Shown piece after piece: positions 7,589 to 48,906 of a DNA stretch of 64,000 nt. The stretch is from contig NZ_QPER01000002.1 in the NCBI RefSeq assembly GCF_009455635.1, forward strand, positions 1,302,001 to 1,366,000, given 5' to 3'. Origin of the DNA: Paraburkholderia agricolaris (GTDB taxonomy: Bacteria > Pseudomonadota > Gammaproteobacteria > Burkholderiales > Burkholderiaceae). The notes under the pieces are model-generated. The model was given only the letters and a program-made list of their open reading frames with translations, was not told the origin of the DNA and searched no databases. The position numbers were made by a program, and so were the translations under genes. Within the stretch, counting starts at the first letter, position 1; each line of letters opens with the position of its first letter.

Positions 7589-8962
7589 ATGCCACAACCG
7601 CTTCCATCCACGCCCGCCGACGCGACACGCCAGACGAATGCCGCGGCTGGCACCGTGCGCCGCTCGAAAGCGCGCTACCAGATTCTCTCGTTGCTGGCGA
7701 TCGGCACGATGATCAACTATCTGGACCGCACGGTGCTCGGCATCGCGGCGCCGCAGTTGACGAAGGAGCTCGGTATCAACGCCGCGGTCATGGGGCTGCT
7801 GTTCTCCGTGTTCTCGTGGAGCTATGTGGCTTCGCAGATTCCGGGCGGCCTCTTTCTCGACCGCTTCGGCAGCAAGCTCACGTATTTCCTGTCGATGACG
7901 TTCTGGTCGCTGTGCACGTTGGCGCAAGGGCTGGTGCACGGCATCGGCGCGTTGTTTGCGCTCCGGCTCGGCCTCGGTGTGTCGGAAGCGCCATGCTTTC
8001 CGACCAATAGCCGTGTGGTGGCCACCTGGTTTCCGCAAAGCGAACGCGCGATGGCGACCGGCACCTACACCGTCGGCGAATATATCGGCCTGGCGTTTTT
8101 CAGTCCGTTCCTGTTCATGCTGATGGGGGCGTTCGGCTGGCGCTCGCTGTTCTACGTGGTCGGCGCCGTCGGCATTGTGTTTGGCCTCGTCTGGTGGAAG
8201 TTTTATCGCGAGCCGCACGAGCATCCGTGGATCAATCAGGCGGAGCTCGACTATATCGAAGCAGGCGGCGGTCTGACTCACGGAAAGAAGGACGCCGCTC
8301 CTTCCGGCGCACCGGCTGCGGCAGCAGGAAAGAGCGGCTTCGAATGGCGCACCATCGGACGCCTGCTCAAGCATCGCCAGTTGGCCGGCATCTGCCTCGG
8401 CCAGTTCGCCGGCAACTCGACGCTGGTGTTCTTCCTCACCTGGTTCCCGACGTATCTCGCCACCGAACGCCATATGGGATGGCTGAAGATCGGCTTCTTC
8501 GCGATCATGCCGTTTATTGCGGCGTCGATCGGTGTGATGTTCGGCGGCATTTTCTCCGACTGGCTGCTGCGGCGCGGCAAGTCGGCGAATGTGGCGCGCA
8601 AGCTGCCGATCATTGCCGGCCTGCTGCTCGCGTCGACGATCATTCTCGCCAACTATGTCGAGAGCAATGTGGTGGTGATCGCGATTCTGTCGGTGGCGTT
8701 CTTCGCGCAGGGGATGGCGGCGCTCGGCTGGACGCTGGTGTCGGATATTGCGCCCGAAGGCCTGCTCGGCGTGACGGGCGGTATCTTTAACTTTGCCGCC
8801 AACCTGGCCGGGATCATCACGCCGCTGGTGGTGGGTTTCATCGTCGCGGCAACCGGCTCGTTTGTCGGCGCGCTGGTGTTCATCGGCGCGGTCGCGTTGA
8901 TCGGCGCGCTGTCGTACATCTTTATCGTCGGCGATATCAAGCGGATCGTGCTGGTGGATTGA
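7589..8962 (+). CDS. MFS transporter, anion:cation symporter family (probable quinate/shikimate uptake)
   Basis: A 457-residue inner-membrane carrier with about 12 predicted membrane helices. The NYLDRTVLGIAAP segment after helix 1 and the GLFLDRFGSKLT loop between helices 2 and 3 mark the ACS branch of the major facilitator superfamily, whose members import organic anions such as galactonate, hexuronates and phthalate. GAGGAG lies upstream of the ATG. As the last gene of the aroQ-shikimate dehydrogenase run, followed by a strong terminator, it most likely brings quinate, shikimate or a related acid into the cell. The substrate is an inference from context. Confidence 0.85.
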   Translation: MPQPLPSTPADATRQTNAAAGTVRRSKARYQILSLLAIGTMINYLDRTVLGIAAPQLTKELGINAAVMGLLFSVFSWSYVASQIPGGLFLDRFGSKLTYFLSMTFWSLCTLAQGLVHGIGALFALRLGLGVSEAPCFPTNSRVVATWFPQSERAMATGTYTVGEYIGLAFFSPFLFMLMGAFGWRSLFYVVGAVGIVFGLVWWKFYREPHEHPWINQAELDYIEAGGGLTHGKKDAAPSGAPAAAAGKSGFEWRTIGRLLKHRQLAGICLGQFAGNSTLVFFLTWFPTYLATERHMGWLKIGFFAIMPFIAASIGVMFGGIFSDWLLRRGKSANVARKLPIIAGLLLASTIILANYVESNVVVIAILSVAFFAQGMAALGWTLVSDIAPEGLLGVTGGIFNFAANLAGIITPLVVGFIVAATGSFVGALVFIGAVALIGALSYIFIVGDIKRIVLVD

Positions 8963-8996
8963 GCCGCAGGCCCGATTGAATCGGCTGATGGAATAG

Positions 8997-9038
8997 ACAA
9001 GGGGGACGCGGCGAGGCCGCGTCCCCCTTGTTTCGTTT
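8997..9038 (+). terminator. Rho-independent terminator after the quinate-shikimate operon
   Basis: A perfect 16-base stem (8997-9012 with 9016-9031) with a 3-base GAG loop, rich in G and C, followed by TTTCGTTT. It lies 35 bases after the MFS gene and 18 before the end of the convergent TetR gene, so it may work for both, but the T-rich tail favours the plus strand. Confidence 0.85.
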
Positions 9039-9048
9039 CAGCTGCGCT

Positions 9049-9744
9049 TCAGTCTTCCTTGCGTACGAAACGCAGCACGGCGTCGACGATCATTGCGCGA
9101 TGACGTGCGCGCAGGCGCGGGTGCGACGGATCGCGGCCGAACGCCGTACCGAAGGTATGGCGATTGCCGACGCGGTGAAAGCACAGCGAGCTGATCATCA
9201 GATGCAGGTCGATTGCGTCGACGTCGCTGCGGAACAGTCCTGCCGCGATACCGCGCGAGAGCAGATCTTCGATCGTATGGATGACGGTGACGTTGCGGCC
9301 TTTGAAGCTCTTCACCTGCTCGACGTACTTCGCGCCGTGAATGTTCTCGATCGTCACGAGGCGCACGAAGTCGCGTTGGCGGTCGTGATAGTCGAACGTA
9401 AACTCGACCAGCGCACGCATGCCCTCGATCGGATCGAGTTCGCTGACGTGCAGATCCTGTTCGAGCGCGCGAATGTCGCCGTACACTTTTTCCAGCACCG
9501 CCTGGTACAACCCTTCCTTGCTGCCGAAGTAGTAGTACAGCATGCGCTTGGTGGTGTTCGTGCGCTCCGCGATCGCGTCGACGCGCGCGCCGGTCAATCC
9601 CATCGCGGAGAACTCCTGGGTCGCGACGTCGAGAATGTTGCGCTTCGTCTGTTCGGGATCGTACTTGCGTCGGGCGTCGGCGCGCGGAGCGCCGGACGCG
9701 ATGCCGTTGGTATCAGGCTCGGCGGCCTTGCTTCCCTTTTTCAT
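9049..9744 (-). CDS. TetR-family regulator, probable repressor of the quinate-shikimate genes
   Basis: A 231-residue protein. The TetR DNA-binding domain lies at about residues 30-85: TKRNILDVATQEFS, then GARVDAIAERTNTTKRMLYYYF with the recognition helix, then the usual GSKEGLYQAVLE. The rest is a helical ligand-binding domain. It is convergent with the MFS gene. Related TetR proteins beside quiC/aroQ genes in Burkholderiales and Pseudomonas control those genes in response to aromatic precursors, and dyads suited to a TetR dimer lie at 5944-6050. The N-terminal 25 residues are polar and probably disordered. Confidence 0.85.
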   Translation of the reverse strand: MKKGSKAAEPDTNGIASGAPRADARRKYDPEQTKRNILDVATQEFSAMGLTGARVDAIAERTNTTKRMLYYYFGSKEGLYQAVLEKVYGDIRALEQDLHVSELDPIEGMRALVEFTFDYHDRQRDFVRLVTIENIHGAKYVEQVKSFKGRNVTVIHTIEDLLSRGIAAGLFRSDVDAIDLHLMISSLCFHRVGNRHTFGTAFGRDPSHPRLRARHRAMIVDAVLRFVRKED

Positions 9745-9853
9745 TGTGTATTCGAGCGGCAGTGACGGCGCATTCTAGCATGGCGAAATCCGCCTCTGGA
9801 GCGGGTCCCGGGCATAAGCGGCGGCGTATTGAGTTGCCGCCGGCGTAGAGTCG

Positions 9854-9901
9854 CGGCATCACGGCATCACGGCATCGCGGCATCACGGCATCGCGGCATC
9901 A
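9854..9901. repeat. Six tandem copies of an 8-base unit
   Basis: CGGCATCA/G is repeated six times without a break from 9854 to 9901. The last copy contains the stop codon of the minus-strand oxidoreductase (complement of 9899-9901). The unit is not a multiple of three, so copy-number change would lie just outside the reading frame, or alter its last codons. Confidence 0.9.
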
Positions 9902-11224
9902 CGACGTCGAGCGGGGCGACCGTGTCGAGGGGCGCCGGGCCGCGAGCGCGTCGCGTGTCTGCATGGCGGTATAGGTGAGTTGGGCCGCCGCGAGACCGAG
10001 TGCGCCGTAGGCGGGTGTCAGGCCGAAGGCGGCAAATGCGTCGGGCACCGGCCGTTCGCCGGAAATGGCCGCCGCCAGCAATTCGCCGGACACGGTGGTC
10101 GGCGCCATGCCGTGGCCGCCGAAGCCGACCGCGTGCCAGACGCCGTCCGCGCTGCGGCCGATTTGCGGCATCTTGTGCCGCGCGTAGCTCATCAGGCCGC
10201 CCCAGGCGTACTCGATACGCACGTCGTGCAACTGCGGATAGACCTTCAGCAGATCGCGCCGCAGCAACCGCGCGATGCTGTCGGGGTCGCGCTCGCGCAC
10301 CGAGATGCGGCCACCCCACAGGATGCGGGTGTCGGGCAGCGGGCGGTAATAGTCGAAGGCGAAGCGGGTGTCGTAGACGGCGGCGCGCGTGTCCATCGCC
10401 TCTTTCAGGCGCGCGCCGAGCGGTTCGGTGGCCATCACGTAGGTGGCGATCGGCAGCACCGCGCGCTCGACCCGTGCATAGACGTTGCGCGCATAGCCGC
10501 CGCCGGCCATCACCACGTGACGCGCTTCGAGCACGCCGTGCGGCGTATGCACGACAAAACCGGCGCCTTCACGTTGGGTGCCGCTGTGTTCCAGGCGCAC
10601 CACCGGCGACGTCTCGTGAATCTGCACGCCCGCATTGGCTGCGGCGCAAGCGACGCCGAGCACATATTTCAGCGGATGAAAGTTGAACGCGTTGCGCTCG
10701 AACAGGCCGCCGTGATAGCGGCTCGTCTTCAGTTGTGACGCGAGCGCCGCGGCCGTCACGGGTTCCCACTCGACGCCGAACGAATCGCGCATCAGGCGCC
10801 GCTGCGCGTCGAGTCTTGCCGGTTCGTCGAACCAGTTGGCGAGGATCACGCCGGCATCGGTCACGTCGCAATCGATGCTGTAGCGCTGGATACGCTTCCT
10901 CATCAGATCGACGGCGTCAGTGGTCAGCGTATAGAGTTCGCGCGCGCGGGCCGGCCCGAGGGTTTTCAGCAGAGCCGCGCAATCGAGGCTGTAGCCGCCG
11001 AATACGAAGCCGCCATTGCGGCCGGAGGCGCCGAAACCGACCTGCTCGGCTTCGAGTACGGCGACGTCGGTGATGCCCCGCTCGGCGAGTCCCAACGCGG
11101 TGGACAAACCCGCGAGGCCGCCACCCATGATGCAGACGTCGACGCTGCGCCGGCCGGCGAGCGGCGCGTAAGCGGACGGGCGCCCGGCAGAGCGGGCGAC
11201 GGTGGCTTCATAAAAACTTTGCAT
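9899..11224 (-). CDS. FAD-dependent oxidoreductase, DAO/gamma-glutamylputrescine oxidase type
   Basis: A 441-residue flavoprotein. The FAD-binding motif GGGLAGLSTALGLAERG lies near residue 33, followed by the GASGRNGGFVFGG loop typical of the DAO superfamily (glycine oxidase, PuuB/OrdL-like). The C-terminus keeps the family pattern in GVWHAVGFGGHGMAP. Such enzymes oxidise amines or D-amino acids with release of hydrogen peroxide or transfer to the respiratory chain. I start at the ATG at 11224; a longer reading frame runs into the next gene. It lies 16 bases downstream of the anti-sigma gene on the same strand, so it could be the third gene of that operon. Substrate unknown. Confidence 0.82.
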   Translation of the reverse strand: MQSFYEATVARSAGRPSAYAPLAGRRSVDVCIMGGGLAGLSTALGLAERGITDVAVLEAEQVGFGASGRNGGFVFGGYSLDCAALLKTLGPARARELYTLTTDAVDLMRKRIQRYSIDCDVTDAGVILANWFDEPARLDAQRRLMRDSFGVEWEPVTAAALASQLKTSRYHGGLFERNAFNFHPLKYVLGVACAAANAGVQIHETSPVVRLEHSGTQREGAGFVVHTPHGVLEARHVVMAGGGYARNVYARVERAVLPIATYVMATEPLGARLKEAMDTRAAVYDTRFAFDYYRPLPDTRILWGGRISVRERDPDSIARLLRRDLLKVYPQLHDVRIEYAWGGLMSYARHKMPQIGRSADGVWHAVGFGGHGMAPTTVSGELLAAAISGERPVPDAFAAFGLTPAYGALGLAAAQLTYTAMQTRDALAARRPSTRSPRSTS

Positions 11225-45715: not shown

Positions 45716-45995
45716 CAGAAGACCCTGCTGCAGTTTCACTTTCCGTGTCACCCGGCGGCGCGCAGCGCGAGGGTAGCCGGGTACTGCAGCGCATGCCCAG
45801 CGTAATCGCGCACCGATCGTCGCTGCTTCACCAAACGTTTGCGCCGTTGCAGCTATTTGCCGACGATTTGTCAGGCTAAAGATTTGCGTTTTGCATGTCG
45901 TTATCCTGTCAAACAAGTCAGGGCCATCGTCCATACCCGCGCCTCACGAGAGCGCGGGATGGCCGAGGCAATAGAGCTCTCCGGGGGAACGAAAC

Positions 45996-47240
45996 TTGAA
46001 TCACCAACGATCGCCATGGCCGCGCACAGCGGCGCCAGGTGAGGTCATCTATGCTGAAGGCTTCGCGGGCGACGCCGTCATCTACGTGATCGCAGACGGC
46101 AAAGTCGAAATTTCCACGCAATGCGATGACAAGAAGGTCATCCTCGCCACGCTCGGCAAGGGCGAGTTCTTTGGCGAGGCGTCCTTGTTACCCGCCGAAC
46201 CGCGCGCGCATACCGCGAGAGCCATCAGCTTCTGTCAATTGACCGTGATCGCGGCGGGCGTCGTGGAAGAAGAGCTCGAACGCGTATCGCCGCTGTTGCG
46301 GTATATCGTGCGCACCATGATTCGACGCGTGAAGAAGAAGGACGACGTTCTCGCCACCAATACGCATGCCGATTTTCTTCCGGGGGTGCTCTCGTACGCG
46401 CACGTCCTTTCGCTGATGGCGGGCATCGAGAACACGGACCGCGTGGACGGACGCGCGCGCCGCGCTCAAGGAGAGGAGTGTTCGGTGCCGCTGCCAGAAG
46501 TCATCAAGAAGTGCCATGCGATTGCCGGCCATTCGCGTCCGCATGTGATGGCAATGCTCAAGCGCATGGAAAAACTCAATCTGGTGACGCTCGAACCGGG
46601 CCGCTCCGATCGCTTGAGCACGCTGTCGGCGCGCTATTCCGCGCAGGACGGCGCGGCCGGGCGGCAGCTCGTCACCTTCGATCCCGTGCGGATCACGGAA
46701 CGGGCCCAGCAGGTGGCGGACCACGATCTCGACCTGTCGATCAACAGCGAGCTGGAGCTGATCGAGCTGGCCGACCTCGAAGCCCTGATCGGCGTCGAGA
46801 AGAACCTGATCCTCAACAAGCTCTCGCATGCGGAGATTGCCGAAGACGTCTTCGCGTTTCGCAAGACGCGGGTCCTGAACTACGTCGAGGAAAAGGGCAT
46901 TACGTATTTTTCCCGGCGCAATCCGCAGGGCACGAGCGAGCTGAAGACGCTGGCCGATCTGGAGCTGGTCGACCAGCGCACCCTGTTCGAAGCCGTGAGT
47001 GCGTTCGACACCTATGACCTCGCGAAATTGCTCGCCGCGGTAACCGGCGAGCCGATCTCCGAGCGCCTCTTTTCGGTGATGACCGAGGCGCGAAAGAAGG
47101 AGGTGTCGTGGGTCATGCGCCGTGAAATCAAGATCGATCCGCTCGAGATTGCTGAGATCGAGGAGCGCTTCATCGAGACCGTGCGCTCGCTCAAGTTCTC
47201 GGCCGCTGCTGTAGCGCCGCTTGCCAACGTGAGTGCCTGA
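45996..47240 (+). CDS. Cyclic-nucleotide-binding protein with FliG-like C-terminal domain
   Basis: A 414-residue protein of unusual build. Residues about 12-120 form a CRP-type cyclic-nucleotide-binding domain: GEVIYAEGFAGDAVIYVIADG, then the phosphate-binding cassette GKGEFFGEASLLPAEPR (about 55-70). Residues about 165-205 look like a winged helix (PEVIKKCHAIAGHSRPHVMA). Residues about 340-405 match the FliG C-terminal torque helix region: LLAAVTGEPISERLFSVMTE, RKKEVSWVMRREIK, then EIAEIEERFIETVRSL. The start is a TTG at 45996 with GGGGGA upstream; a stop in frame lies seven codons before, so a longer form is excluded. Genes for MotA- and MotB-like stators follow at once. It may act as a nucleotide-sensing rotor partner. 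FliG match is by eye; where FliG has Asp-Asp this has Arg-Arg. Confidence 0.75.
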   Translation: MNHQRSPWPRTAAPGEVIYAEGFAGDAVIYVIADGKVEISTQCDDKKVILATLGKGEFFGEASLLPAEPRAHTARAISFCQLTVIAAGVVEEELERVSPLLRYIVRTMIRRVKKKDDVLATNTHADFLPGVLSYAHVLSLMAGIENTDRVDGRARRAQGEECSVPLPEVIKKCHAIAGHSRPHVMAMLKRMEKLNLVTLEPGRSDRLSTLSARYSAQDGAAGRQLVTFDPVRITERAQQVADHDLDLSINSELELIELADLEALIGVEKNLILNKLSHAEIAEDVFAFRKTRVLNYVEEKGITYFSRRNPQGTSELKTLADLELVDQRTLFEAVSAFDTYDLAKLLAAVTGEPISERLFSVMTEARKKEVSWVMRREIKIDPLEIAEIEERFIETVRSLKFSAAAVAPLANVSA

Positions 47241-47320
47241 CGCCTGTGTCTGCCAGCGGGACGGCCGGGTGCTTTGCAGGATTGCTGCCCGGATGACCGG
47301 GCAGCCGTTCGAGAGGATGT

Positions 47321-48094
47321 ATGGATCTTTTGACGCTATTTGGCGCCTTGTTTGGCGTAACGGCCATCGTGGCCGGCTTTTCGCTCGAGGGTGGGCATTT
47401 CACTTCGCTGTTTCAGACGGAGGCGTTCGTTATCGTCCTGGGCGGCACGTTCGGCGCGGTGATGATCCAGAACACCTGGGCCAGGTTTTACGACGGCGTC
47501 AAGCAACTGCGGTTCGCCTTTGTGAAGGCGCGCCAGGTCGACCGGAAAAGCCTGGCGGTCCTGCTCGAGTGGGGCGATCAGGCGAAGCTGAACGGCATGC
47601 TTGTGTTCGAGTCGCTCGAGGTGAGCGAGGCCGGTGGCTTCAATCCGTTTGCCAAACGCGGTCTGGAGCTTCTGGCCAACGGCGTGTCGACTGCCGTACT
47701 CGAAGACGCCTTGCAACGGGAGCTGGACGCCTATGAGCGCAACCACATGGCGGCCGCACGCATCTGGCAGCAGGCGGGCGGCTACGCGCCGACGTTCGGC
47801 ATTCTGGGGGCGGTGCTCGGCCTGATTCAGGTCACCGGCCACATGCTCGAACCGGCGCAACTCGGCGAGGGGATTGCCGTCGCGTTCGTGGCCACCTTGT
47901 ACGGTCTCGCGTTGGCGAATCTGGTGTTCCTGCCGTTGTACGGCAAGATCCGGGCGCAGGTGGACAGCGAGTTGCGCTTCCGGCGCTTATACCTCGACGG
48001 CCTGCTCGCAATTTCACGCAAGGAGTCGCCTCATACGATCGAAACCCGGCTGGCGGGCGACATCCGGGAACGGTCGGCCGAGTTGCTGGGTTGA
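47321..48094 (+). CDS. MotA-like stator protein (MotA/TolQ/ExbB family)
   Basis: A 257-residue inner-membrane protein with four predicted helices: near 1-22 (FGALFGVTAIVAGFSL), 28-50 (FQTEAFVIVLGGTFGAVMI), 153-175 (GYAPTFGILGAVLGLIQV) and 188-212 (AVAFVATLYGLALANLVFLP). The cytoplasmic loop between helices 2 and 3 is long, as in MotA. It should form an ion channel with the MotB-like protein. GAGAGG stands before the ATG at 47321. It is closer to MotC/PomA-type stators than to ExbB. It sits with a CNBD-FliG-like gene, not with flagellar genes. Confidence 0.87.
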   Translation: MDLLTLFGALFGVTAIVAGFSLEGGHFTSLFQTEAFVIVLGGTFGAVMIQNTWARFYDGVKQLRFAFVKARQVDRKSLAVLLEWGDQAKLNGMLVFESLEVSEAGGFNPFAKRGLELLANGVSTAVLEDALQRELDAYERNHMAAARIWQQAGGYAPTFGILGAVLGLIQVTGHMLEPAQLGEGIAVAFVATLYGLALANLVFLPLYGKIRAQVDSELRFRRLYLDGLLAISRKESPHTIETRLAGDIRERSAELLG

Positions 48095-48189
48095 TCGTAT
48101 TCGACCGCGATCGCGAAGCCGGCCGTGACCGGTCGGCACCGGCGAGCCGCGCACCTGATTAAACGCATTCGGAAACAGACGTTCCTGGC

Positions 48190-48906
48190 ATGAACACTTC
48201 TTCGGGTAACAAGCGCCTTGTGGCGGACAAAACCGGCTATCGGCACGCTGACGGGAACGGCGACGCGGACGATGAAGTGCAGTCCGGACGCTGGCTGATT
48301 TCCTATGCGGACCTCATCACCACGCTGATGGTGTTGTTCCTGGCGCTGTATGCGTTGCAGTTGGCAAAGAACCGCGAGCTTGAAGTAAAGATGCTGGCGC
48401 AGCGTGCGGTGAAAACGGCAACGGCCGCTCGTGTGGTTCAGGCTCCTCCCGCCGTGCCCGAAGTGCCCGACGCGGCAAGACGGCAACTGCTTGCCTTGCT
48501 CGCGCCGCTTCAGGATAACCGGCAGATTACGATTTCAAATGCTTCGCAGGGCGTGGAGATCGCGATCAACGCGAAGGTGCTCTTCAACTCTGGCGACGCG
48601 CATCTGTTGCCGGAATCCTTCGACGTCTTGAATCGGATCGCCGGGGTCCTGCGCGAGCGCGCGAAGAACAACATCCTCGTCGAAGGGCACACGGACAGTG
48701 TGCCGATCTCGAGCGCGAAGTACGAGTCGAACTGGGAGCTGTCATCGGCGCGGGCCGGCGCCGTTGTTCGATTTTTTGCCGGCCGGGGCATTGAGCCGCA
48801 CAGAATGGCCGCGATCGGCAGGGCGGACAATTTTCCGCTGATCATCGGCGACGATGCGGCGGCGCGCGCCGCGAATCGCCGCGTGACCATTCTCGTGGCG
48901 TATTGA
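48190..48906 (+). CDS. MotB-like stator protein with OmpA-type peptidoglycan-binding domain
   Basis: A 238-residue protein. After a polar N-terminus a single membrane helix (about 35-57, starting ISYADLITTLMVLFLALYAL) carries the conserved proton- or sodium-carrying Asp (about residue 41). Residues about 120-238 form an OmpA/MotB peptidoglycan-binding domain: LFNSGDAHLLPESFDVLNRI, VEGHTDSVPI and NWELSSARA. It anchors the MotA-like channel to the cell wall. A 95-base gap separates it from the MotA-like gene. Together with the first gene of the cluster it suggests a motor unit. Confidence 0.88.
   Translation: MNTSSGNKRLVADKTGYRHADGNGDADDEVQSGRWLISYADLITTLMVLFLALYALQLAKNRELEVKMLAQRAVKTATAARVVQAPPAVPEVPDAARRQLLALLAPLQDNRQITISNASQGVEIAINAKVLFNSGDAHLLPESFDVLNRIAGVLRERAKNNILVEGHTDSVPISSAKYESNWELSSARAGAVVRFFAGRGIEPHRMAAIGRADNFPLIIGDDAAARAANRRVTILVAY

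Follow-up and report, generated by a model that had tools for sequence, protein, structure and literature searches.

We studied a set of three genes (the trio) in a 64,000-nucleotide stretch of DNA from Paraburkholderia agricolaris, which is called the window below. The trio consists of gene 1, a MotA-like gene and a MotB-like gene. Sequence and predicted-structure comparisons showed that gene 1 codes for a predicted CRP-family protein, with a cyclic-nucleotide pocket and a winged helix-turn-helix (HTH), that carries a FliG_C domain. FliG_C is the part of the flagellar rotor that is pushed by stators. One contact pair by which a stator meets FliG_C was changed both in gene 1 and in the MotA of the trio, and a sigma-28-like element lay before the genes. 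These results suggested an accessory stator that is coexpressed with the flagellum and has its own regulator, and we gave this reading a probability of roughly 0.4. The trio was filed as a putative messenger-controlled accessory stator.

Domain composition of gene 1

An earlier note on the window had placed three same-strand genes here, and this was confirmed, with gene 1 at 45996-47240, the MotA-like gene at 47321-48094 and the MotB-like gene at 48190-48906, all on the + strand. The products had 414, 257 and 238 residues, and the intergenic gaps were 80 and 95 nt. Gene 1 had a TTG start. Its product consisted of a cyclic-nucleotide-binding (CNB) domain at residues of about 7-120, a CRP-type winged HTH at about 120-250, a helical linker part and a FliG_C-like segment at 315-404, which was coded by 46938..47207 on the + strand.

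The FliG-like C-terminus named in the earlier note proved to be real. A structural match to FliG-C was looked for and found, and the predicted structure matched the FliG_C fold over 88 residues at 1.4-1.5 Å. The FliG_C Pfam score of the window protein was 20.7 bits, which was below the cut-off of 23.3. The cut-off was passed by a number of Burkholderiaceae relatives and by 4/4 distant relatives, which came from four genomes and were 26-31% identical to gene 1. In the whole genome (8.7 Mb in two contigs, with the window on the 3.9-Mb contig C2), gene 1 was one of only two FliG_C matches at an expectation value (E) of 0.001 or lower, and the other was the flagellar FliG. A sequence search of PDB chains with the FliG part gave no FliG match (best E 0.38), but the fold search did find FliG. 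In a second Foldseek search of gene 1, no FliG was among the matches listed, all of which were CRP-type proteins. When five flagellar FliGs were compared with the whole window by tblastn, nothing significant was obtained, gene 1 included (best E 0.68). MgtE_N was considered in place of FliG_C and rejected; it appeared only in one distant locus (L118), with E 0.0018 against 1.8e-9 for FliG_C.

The N-terminal and middle domains of FliG bind FliF and FliM. These domains gave no Pfam match in gene 1 at E up to 1, where residues 250-310 were not compared alone. Residues 250-310 were helical with low model confidence, and the N-terminus was taken up by the CNB domain. Gene 1 differed from FliG in that a CNB domain and a winged HTH, and not recognisable FliG N-terminal and middle domains, stood in front of FliG_C.

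The nucleotide-binding domain that had been claimed for gene 1 was supported by Pfam (2.3e-18) and also by fold, from the predicted structure against known structures. Gene 1 was aligned in four sets of 37, 22, 21 and 41 rows (A1 to A4), where A2 covered the FliG part, and two loci with a broken gene 1 (L036 and L082) were excluded from all of them. The pocket residues E61 and R70, which we take to be the phosphate-binding Glu and Arg of the CNB domain, were present in 41/41 rows. The CRP-type winged HTH had been overlooked in the earlier note. Its residues R181, H183 and V184 were kept in all 30 Burkholderiaceae rows, and its recognition helix was near-invariant in Burkholderiaceae and unconserved in distant relatives. 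Two structure models of gene 1 were made. The first had a mean predicted local distance difference test score (pLDDT) of 54.6 with a poorly folded CNB part, and the second had a mean of 72.8 without poor folding of this part.

Proposed contact face between gene 1 and the stator

The earlier note had proposed that the Asp-Asp of FliG is replaced by Arg-Arg in gene 1 and that the stator partner may have swapped charges. The FliG part of gene 1 was aligned by profile (hhalign) with five flagellar FliGs, and E. coli numbering was transferred by motif. The alignment ran through the torque helix without a gap, with E 7e-4 and a probability of only 26%. Fold alignments to Salmonella FliG had end offsets of 83 and 84 and agreed with this register within one residue. 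Because the torque helix was aligned without a gap, D288 and D289 fell on W372 and V373, and R375-R376 fell on positions 291 and 292. In this register, the Arg pair did not replace the Asp pair. Both arginines were found in 30/30 Burkholderiaceae rows, and neither was Arg in any of the 11 distant rows. The argument for swapped charges failed because the Arg pair did not align with Asp-Asp and because none of the distant rows had the two arginines together.

At the places of FliG R281, D288 and D289, the window protein had A365, W372 and V373. The D289 column was acidic in 0/41 gene-1 rows and the D288 column in 3/41. Arg at R281 was found in 10 of the 41 rows (10/11 distant, 0/30 Burkholderiaceae), and the residue after this position was Arg in all 30 Burkholderiaceae rows. 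R297 was changed to Asp in 39/41 rows. The gene 1 of the window therefore appears to lack the torque-helix charges R281, D288 and D289 of FliG, and gene 1 in general is set apart from FliG by the loss of D288/D289 and by the Asp at R297.

The stator genes were as the earlier note had described them. The MotA-like channel matched MotA_ExbB (8.3e-26) and MotA_N (1e-8) in Pfam, and the MotB-like cell-wall anchor matched MotB_plug (7.6e-10) and OmpA (2.1e-15). The trio MotA was of the MotC type by NF006583 (247 bits against a cut-off of 237), and one of two trees agreed with modest support. The best NCBIfam match of the trio MotB was MotD, below the cut-off. The Asp of its YADLIT motif aligned with the Asp of YADFMT in the two other MotBs of the genome. 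We showed by these comparisons that the trio MotB has the plug segment, the predicted ion-binding Asp and the OmpA/peptidoglycan-binding domain, which indicated a stator of flagellar build.

In E. coli, the contacts between stator and FliG were given as R90 with D288-D289 and E98 with R281 in PMC12505986. These positions were examined in the trio MotAs and in 28 other MotA homologues from 17 of the 22 genomes searched. Among the comparator rows, L173 and L175 were dropped as the same genes as distant trio rows, L164 was dropped from the trees as short, and L171 and L174 were dropped from the second tree for their long branches. Arg stood at the R90 position in 27/28 comparators, and the two E. 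coli-type MotAs of the own genome also had it. In the trio MotAs, this position was Lys in 78/78 Burkholderiaceae and Met, Ile or Leu in the three distant ones. Glu at the E98 position was found in 81/81 trio MotAs and in 26/28 comparators. Of the FliG-contact pair of MotC/MotD-type stators, the trio MotA thus appears to have kept E98, with Lys in place of R90.

A first maximum-likelihood tree placed the Burkholderiaceae trio MotAs with the MotC-type rows on a long branch and with modest support (87/84), and a second tree left this placement open. The distant trio MotAs fell among other types, in a group with support of its own (96/81 and 95/87 in the two trees). A single clade of all trio MotAs was rejected (log-likelihood 79.8 lower, p-AU 7.8e-6 for the approximately unbiased test), in a test that was run after the first tree and with a long Burkholderiaceae branch. 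Since R90 was lost in the trio MotAs and D289 was lost in gene 1, both partners of the R90-D289 contact were altered, and this was so for two stator subfamilies. We consider this double change the best, though indirect, evidence that gene 1 and the trio MotA would meet at the R90-D289 face. Since defining residues of FliG and of MotC/MotD stators were looked for in the trio and were found to be altered in both cases, it was classed as neither FliG nor an ordinary MotC/MotD stator.

Two further MotA/MotB pairs were seen in the genome, which made three stator pairs in total. Both were of the E. coli MotA type (TIGR03818 over the cut-off). One lay on contig C1 beside flhDC-like genes, a label read from translations, and the other was a complete pair on contig C2 at G000:C2:1121549-1122241.

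Conservation, upstream elements and link with flagella

In a scan of named genomes, 77 loci from Burkholderia, Paraburkholderia, Trinickia and Caballeronia were obtained, whose gene 1 had an identity of 63-98%. One of these loci (L031) belonged to P. xenovorans LB400. The top gene-1 matches among them were Paraburkholderia fungorum strains (98% and 94% identity). The trio was conserved with the same order on one strand in 77/77 loci. The spacing between motA and motB was 1 kb in one of them (L042), gene 1 was broken in L036 and L082, and motB was broken in L036. Paraburkholderia franconis CNPSo 3157 carried the trio twice, on separate scaffolds (L039 and L080).

In a sample of the own family, 49/120 genomes matched. 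Gene 1 was present in 24 of these (23 near full length and a diverged one in G430), and the other 25 matched in the CNB or CNB/HTH part only. The presence in 24/120 genomes therefore indicated a patchy distribution overall; in the own genus it was 4/10, and two copies had an internal stop. In the class, 37/321 genomes matched at E 1e-10, and the FliG part was matched only in the own genome and in G232, G116, G233 and G104. Twenty class regions were fetched, of which four matched the FliG-part profile; two others, scanned with Pfam, were CNB-EAL proteins. Protein searches gave both PF00027 and PF01706 in 7/17 and 1/3 of the matches, two of which were labelled only 'Gammaproteobacteria bacterium'.

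In three of the four distant genomes, MotA and MotB lay no more than about 1 kb after gene 1 and on its strand, and in one locus (L116) a gene for a small CNB protein lay between. No MotA/MotB was found on the 8.8-kb contig that carried the gene-1 homologue of the fourth, G233. This genome had two further FliG_C proteins besides its flagellar FliG, at L140:1489-3093 (57.9 bits) and L144:1-2841 (75.7 bits with two copies), one of them beside a DnaK-like gene (label read from the translation). In this genome, FliG_C seems to have a use apart from the rotor. The distant trio at L117 had a protein with a class III cyclase domain beside it (7699-9918; PF00211, 1.3e-7), and this protein is a possible source of the nucleotide.

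The extra FliG_C proteins of G233 could favour an explanation in which gene 1 does not touch the stator. The stator would then be a spare one beside an unrelated regulator of its expression, and the FliG_C fold would serve dimerisation or another purpose. It agrees with this that no direct sign of contact between gene 1 and MotA was obtained here. However, the linkage was seen in two lineages whose stators belong to different subfamilies, and both had lost R90. We regard this explanation as quite improbable.

The region upstream of gene 1 gave a link to flagella. When 25 upstream regions were aligned, one block was common to all, TAAAG followed after 13 to 16 bases by GNCGN[TA]A. In the window this was a sigma-28 (FliA)-type element, TAAAG...GTCGTTA, at 45877..45903 on the + strand, 119 bp before the start codon. 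With a pattern that was written after the alignment had been viewed, a site was found within 250 bp upstream in 77/77 loci, and only 7 others occurred in the same loci (1,992,038 bp, both strands counted). In form, the element resembled sites that precede motA and two flagellin genes in the own genome, and also E. coli FliA sites as given in PMC4183435. With a matrix from 12 E. coli sites, the window element scored 13.1 bits and ranked 4th in the window, and motA scored 13.5 and the flagellins 13.9 and 16.0. Across the 77 loci, the trio sites scored 1.6 to 21.0; they ranked first in 35 and first or second in 54. No match to the pattern was found within 400 bp upstream in the four distant loci. 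The trio of the window is thus a predicted member of the sigma-28 regulon, with a FliA-type promoter element before the operon that has a moderate matrix score.

Upstream of this element, a CAAACGTTTGCG box lay at 45832..45843 (no strand assigned), which we take to be a LacI/GalR-type palindrome. The form CAAACGWTT was found within 300 bp upstream in 61/77 loci, and in 50 of those 61 it stood 37-48 bp before TAAAG; it had 111 matches in total across the same loci on both strands. The CAAACGTTTGCG palindrome occurred at 7 places in the 8.7-Mb genome. The CAAACGTTTG box was considered as a target of gene 1, and this was not established. A LacI-family regulator is likelier because one of the 7 places precedes an RbsB-like gene. 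Through such a regulator, the palindrome may link the trio with the supply of sugar.

The carriers of the trio were examined for flagella. Flagellar FliG was found at full score in 61 of the 63 trio-bearing genomes searched (16 + 47). FliG and an FHIPEP protein were present in the own genome and in each of the four distant ones; of the FHIPEP protein, G233 had only a piece. One carrier without FliG was a metagenome-assembled genome of a symbiont (G326; L036 6001-8821), in which gene 1 had one frameshift, motB had two and motA was open. The trio may have decayed here once flagella were lost, in a single assembly for which sequencing error is the alternative. In the other, G367, the trio lay on a 6-kb contig with the only FliG_C gene found, and flagellar FliG was probably missing for lack of assembly. 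In the own genome, FHIPEP (FlhA/SctV-type) genes besides the best-scoring one were seen at C1:1237015, C1:3334162 and C2:3628430; they might belong to several type III export systems or to a second flagellar set.

Genes around the trio were also compared. In the window, the six neighbours were a PfkB kinase, a nucleoside hydrolase, a 3-dmu-9 domain protein, a fatty-acid hydroxylase, an MFS transporter and a DeoR regulator. The view that no basal-body genes lay nearby stood in so far as these neighbours were metabolic, transport or regulatory genes and no second FliG was present; the window was scanned for FliG and not for every basal-body family. When the flanks of the trio were compared between the window and 25 loci, the 26 had no further protein in common. 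The next-largest cluster, apart from frames judged to overlap the trio, covered 4 loci and consisted of chemoreceptors (MCPsignal, HAMP). In one of these loci, a dCache-HAMP-MCPsignal chemoreceptor gene lay directly 3' of motB (L052:8862-10808). Its homologue was found on the same strand less than 700 bp after motB in 19/77 loci, all of the Burkholderia set. Since the chemoreceptor gene directly followed motB in these loci, the trio sits with a chemotaxis gene in that Burkholderia group.

Two readings in the earlier note were affected by these results. An accessory flagellar stator clutch was partly supported, by the sigma-28-like element, the co-occurrence with flagellar FliG and the chemoreceptor gene after motB. 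A separate envelope motor lost support because of the same three findings. As a separate ion-driven motor, the gene-1 dimer would be a rotor turned by its own MotA ring, and it would act on DNA or another cytoplasmic target independently of flagella, in the manner of Zorya. A dedicated rotor-like domain, an altered stator face, a stator that appears anchored and ion-competent, and a match of the trio MotB to ZorB models (1.2e-17, PADLOC) are in keeping with such a motor. However, the trio MotA matched no PADLOC model at E 0.01, and no other neighbour was common to all 26 loci. We consider a separate motor unlikely. Phage defence was considered as a role of the trio and rejected; the other PADLOC matches were the CNB region of two distant gene-1 proteins and a weak AbiEi match (0.0056) for gene 1.

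As a pure clutch or brake, nucleotide-loaded gene 1 would bind the stator by its FliG_C domain and park it or release it towards the rotor. The HTH would be a remnant, and the output would be swimming or swarming. Besides the link with flagella, the intact stator and the unconserved recognition helix of the distant relatives speak for such a clutch. A comparable action on motor or stator is described for YcgR, EpsE and FlgZ in PMC13432727 and PMC12288467. However, the recognition helix was almost invariant in Burkholderiaceae, which a dead remnant would not need, and the change at stator R90 suggested tuning to something other than ordinary FliG. We consider a pure clutch or brake possible but less likely than not.

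Proposed docking and relation to known systems

The CRP-type DNA-binding fold would open a third reading, in which gene 1 is a transcription regulator docked on a stator. For the accessory stator with its own regulator, we propose the following. By means of its FliG_C domains, the gene-1 dimer would dock on the cytoplasmic ring of the cognate MotA pentamer, where it would replace the flagellar rotor. Binding of cAMP or a similar nucleotide to the CNB domain would decide whether the dimer docks, and docking would couple the regulator to the condition of the stator, such as its ion flow, load or availability. The winged HTH would then be released to DNA or withheld from it, and the docked stator would be kept off the flagellar rotor. 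The trio would form a switch that connects motor and genes and is gated by load and messenger; its output to DNA is the least certain step.

Transcription as the output was favoured by the near-invariant HTH in Burkholderiaceae. The recognition residues missing in distant members favoured stator availability as the output, and rotation of gene 1 itself would be a third possible output. The change from Arg to Lys at R90, on which the proposed contact partly rests, is mild. In its furthest form, the proposal is that a CRP-family factor docked by a rotor domain has its DNA-bound state under the direct control of a cyclic nucleotide and of ion flow or load on wall-anchored MotA/MotB, and that this was built twice with different stator subfamilies. 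We put this form forward tentatively and with some doubt.

The closest working analogue of the proposed docking is the MotCD-FlgZ-SadC circuit of Pseudomonas aeruginosa. In this bacterium, FlgZ that has bound cyclic di-GMP (c-di-GMP) takes MotCD away from the motor, and the cyclase SadC is stimulated by MotC through direct binding, according to PMC12288467. The likeness would be that a second MotC-type stator is tied to a second messenger and that a messenger-binding protein acts on the stator. The difference is that FlgZ is a c-di-GMP-responsive YcgR homologue according to PMC13432727, whereas gene 1 codes for a CRP-family protein. In the same source, the YcgR brake and the EpsE clutch are soluble factors whose action on MotA and/or FliG depends on the state of the cell, and gene 1 would resemble them in this respect.

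CRP/FNR regulators and the Bdellovibrio proteins Bd1971 (cAMP-EAL) and Bd2879 were also compared, and gene 1 differed from them in the extra C-terminal FliG_C and the adjoining stator genes. FlgZ is of the PilZ type. To our knowledge, it has neither a FliG_C domain nor a DNA-binding fold, and the MotCD-FlgZ-SadC circuit is not one gene trio. YcgR and EpsE have, as far as we know, different folds, act on flagellar FliG/MotA and have no rotor domain of their own. ZorAB of the phage-defence system Zorya is a MotA/MotB-like motor linked to DNA-acting cytoplasmic proteins. The trio resembled it in the match of MotB to ZorB models, and it differed in that the trio MotA had no ZorA match (0 PADLOC families, E 0.01) and in that a sigma-28-like element was present instead.

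No CNB-FliG fusion or trio of this kind was described in the titles and starts of abstracts found by keyword in open-access literature, a coverage outside which most subscription papers and preprints fall. The parts were of known kinds, and the combination and the double contact change were undescribed as far as could be seen.

A FliG_C domain that is fused to a cyclic-nucleotide- and DNA-binding-type protein, inherited with a stator and accompanied by matching contact changes would offer a testable stator with a partner other than the rotor. It touches the open questions of how stators signal surface contact and load and by which route cAMP-type messengers reach the motor. PilZ proteins cover c-di-GMP. 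The trio would also be a natural second rotor-stator interface for testing the charges that carry torque. Many Burkholderia-type bacteria carry such a trio, by which they may connect a second messenger with an ion-driven motor, and perhaps with gene control, in one small device.

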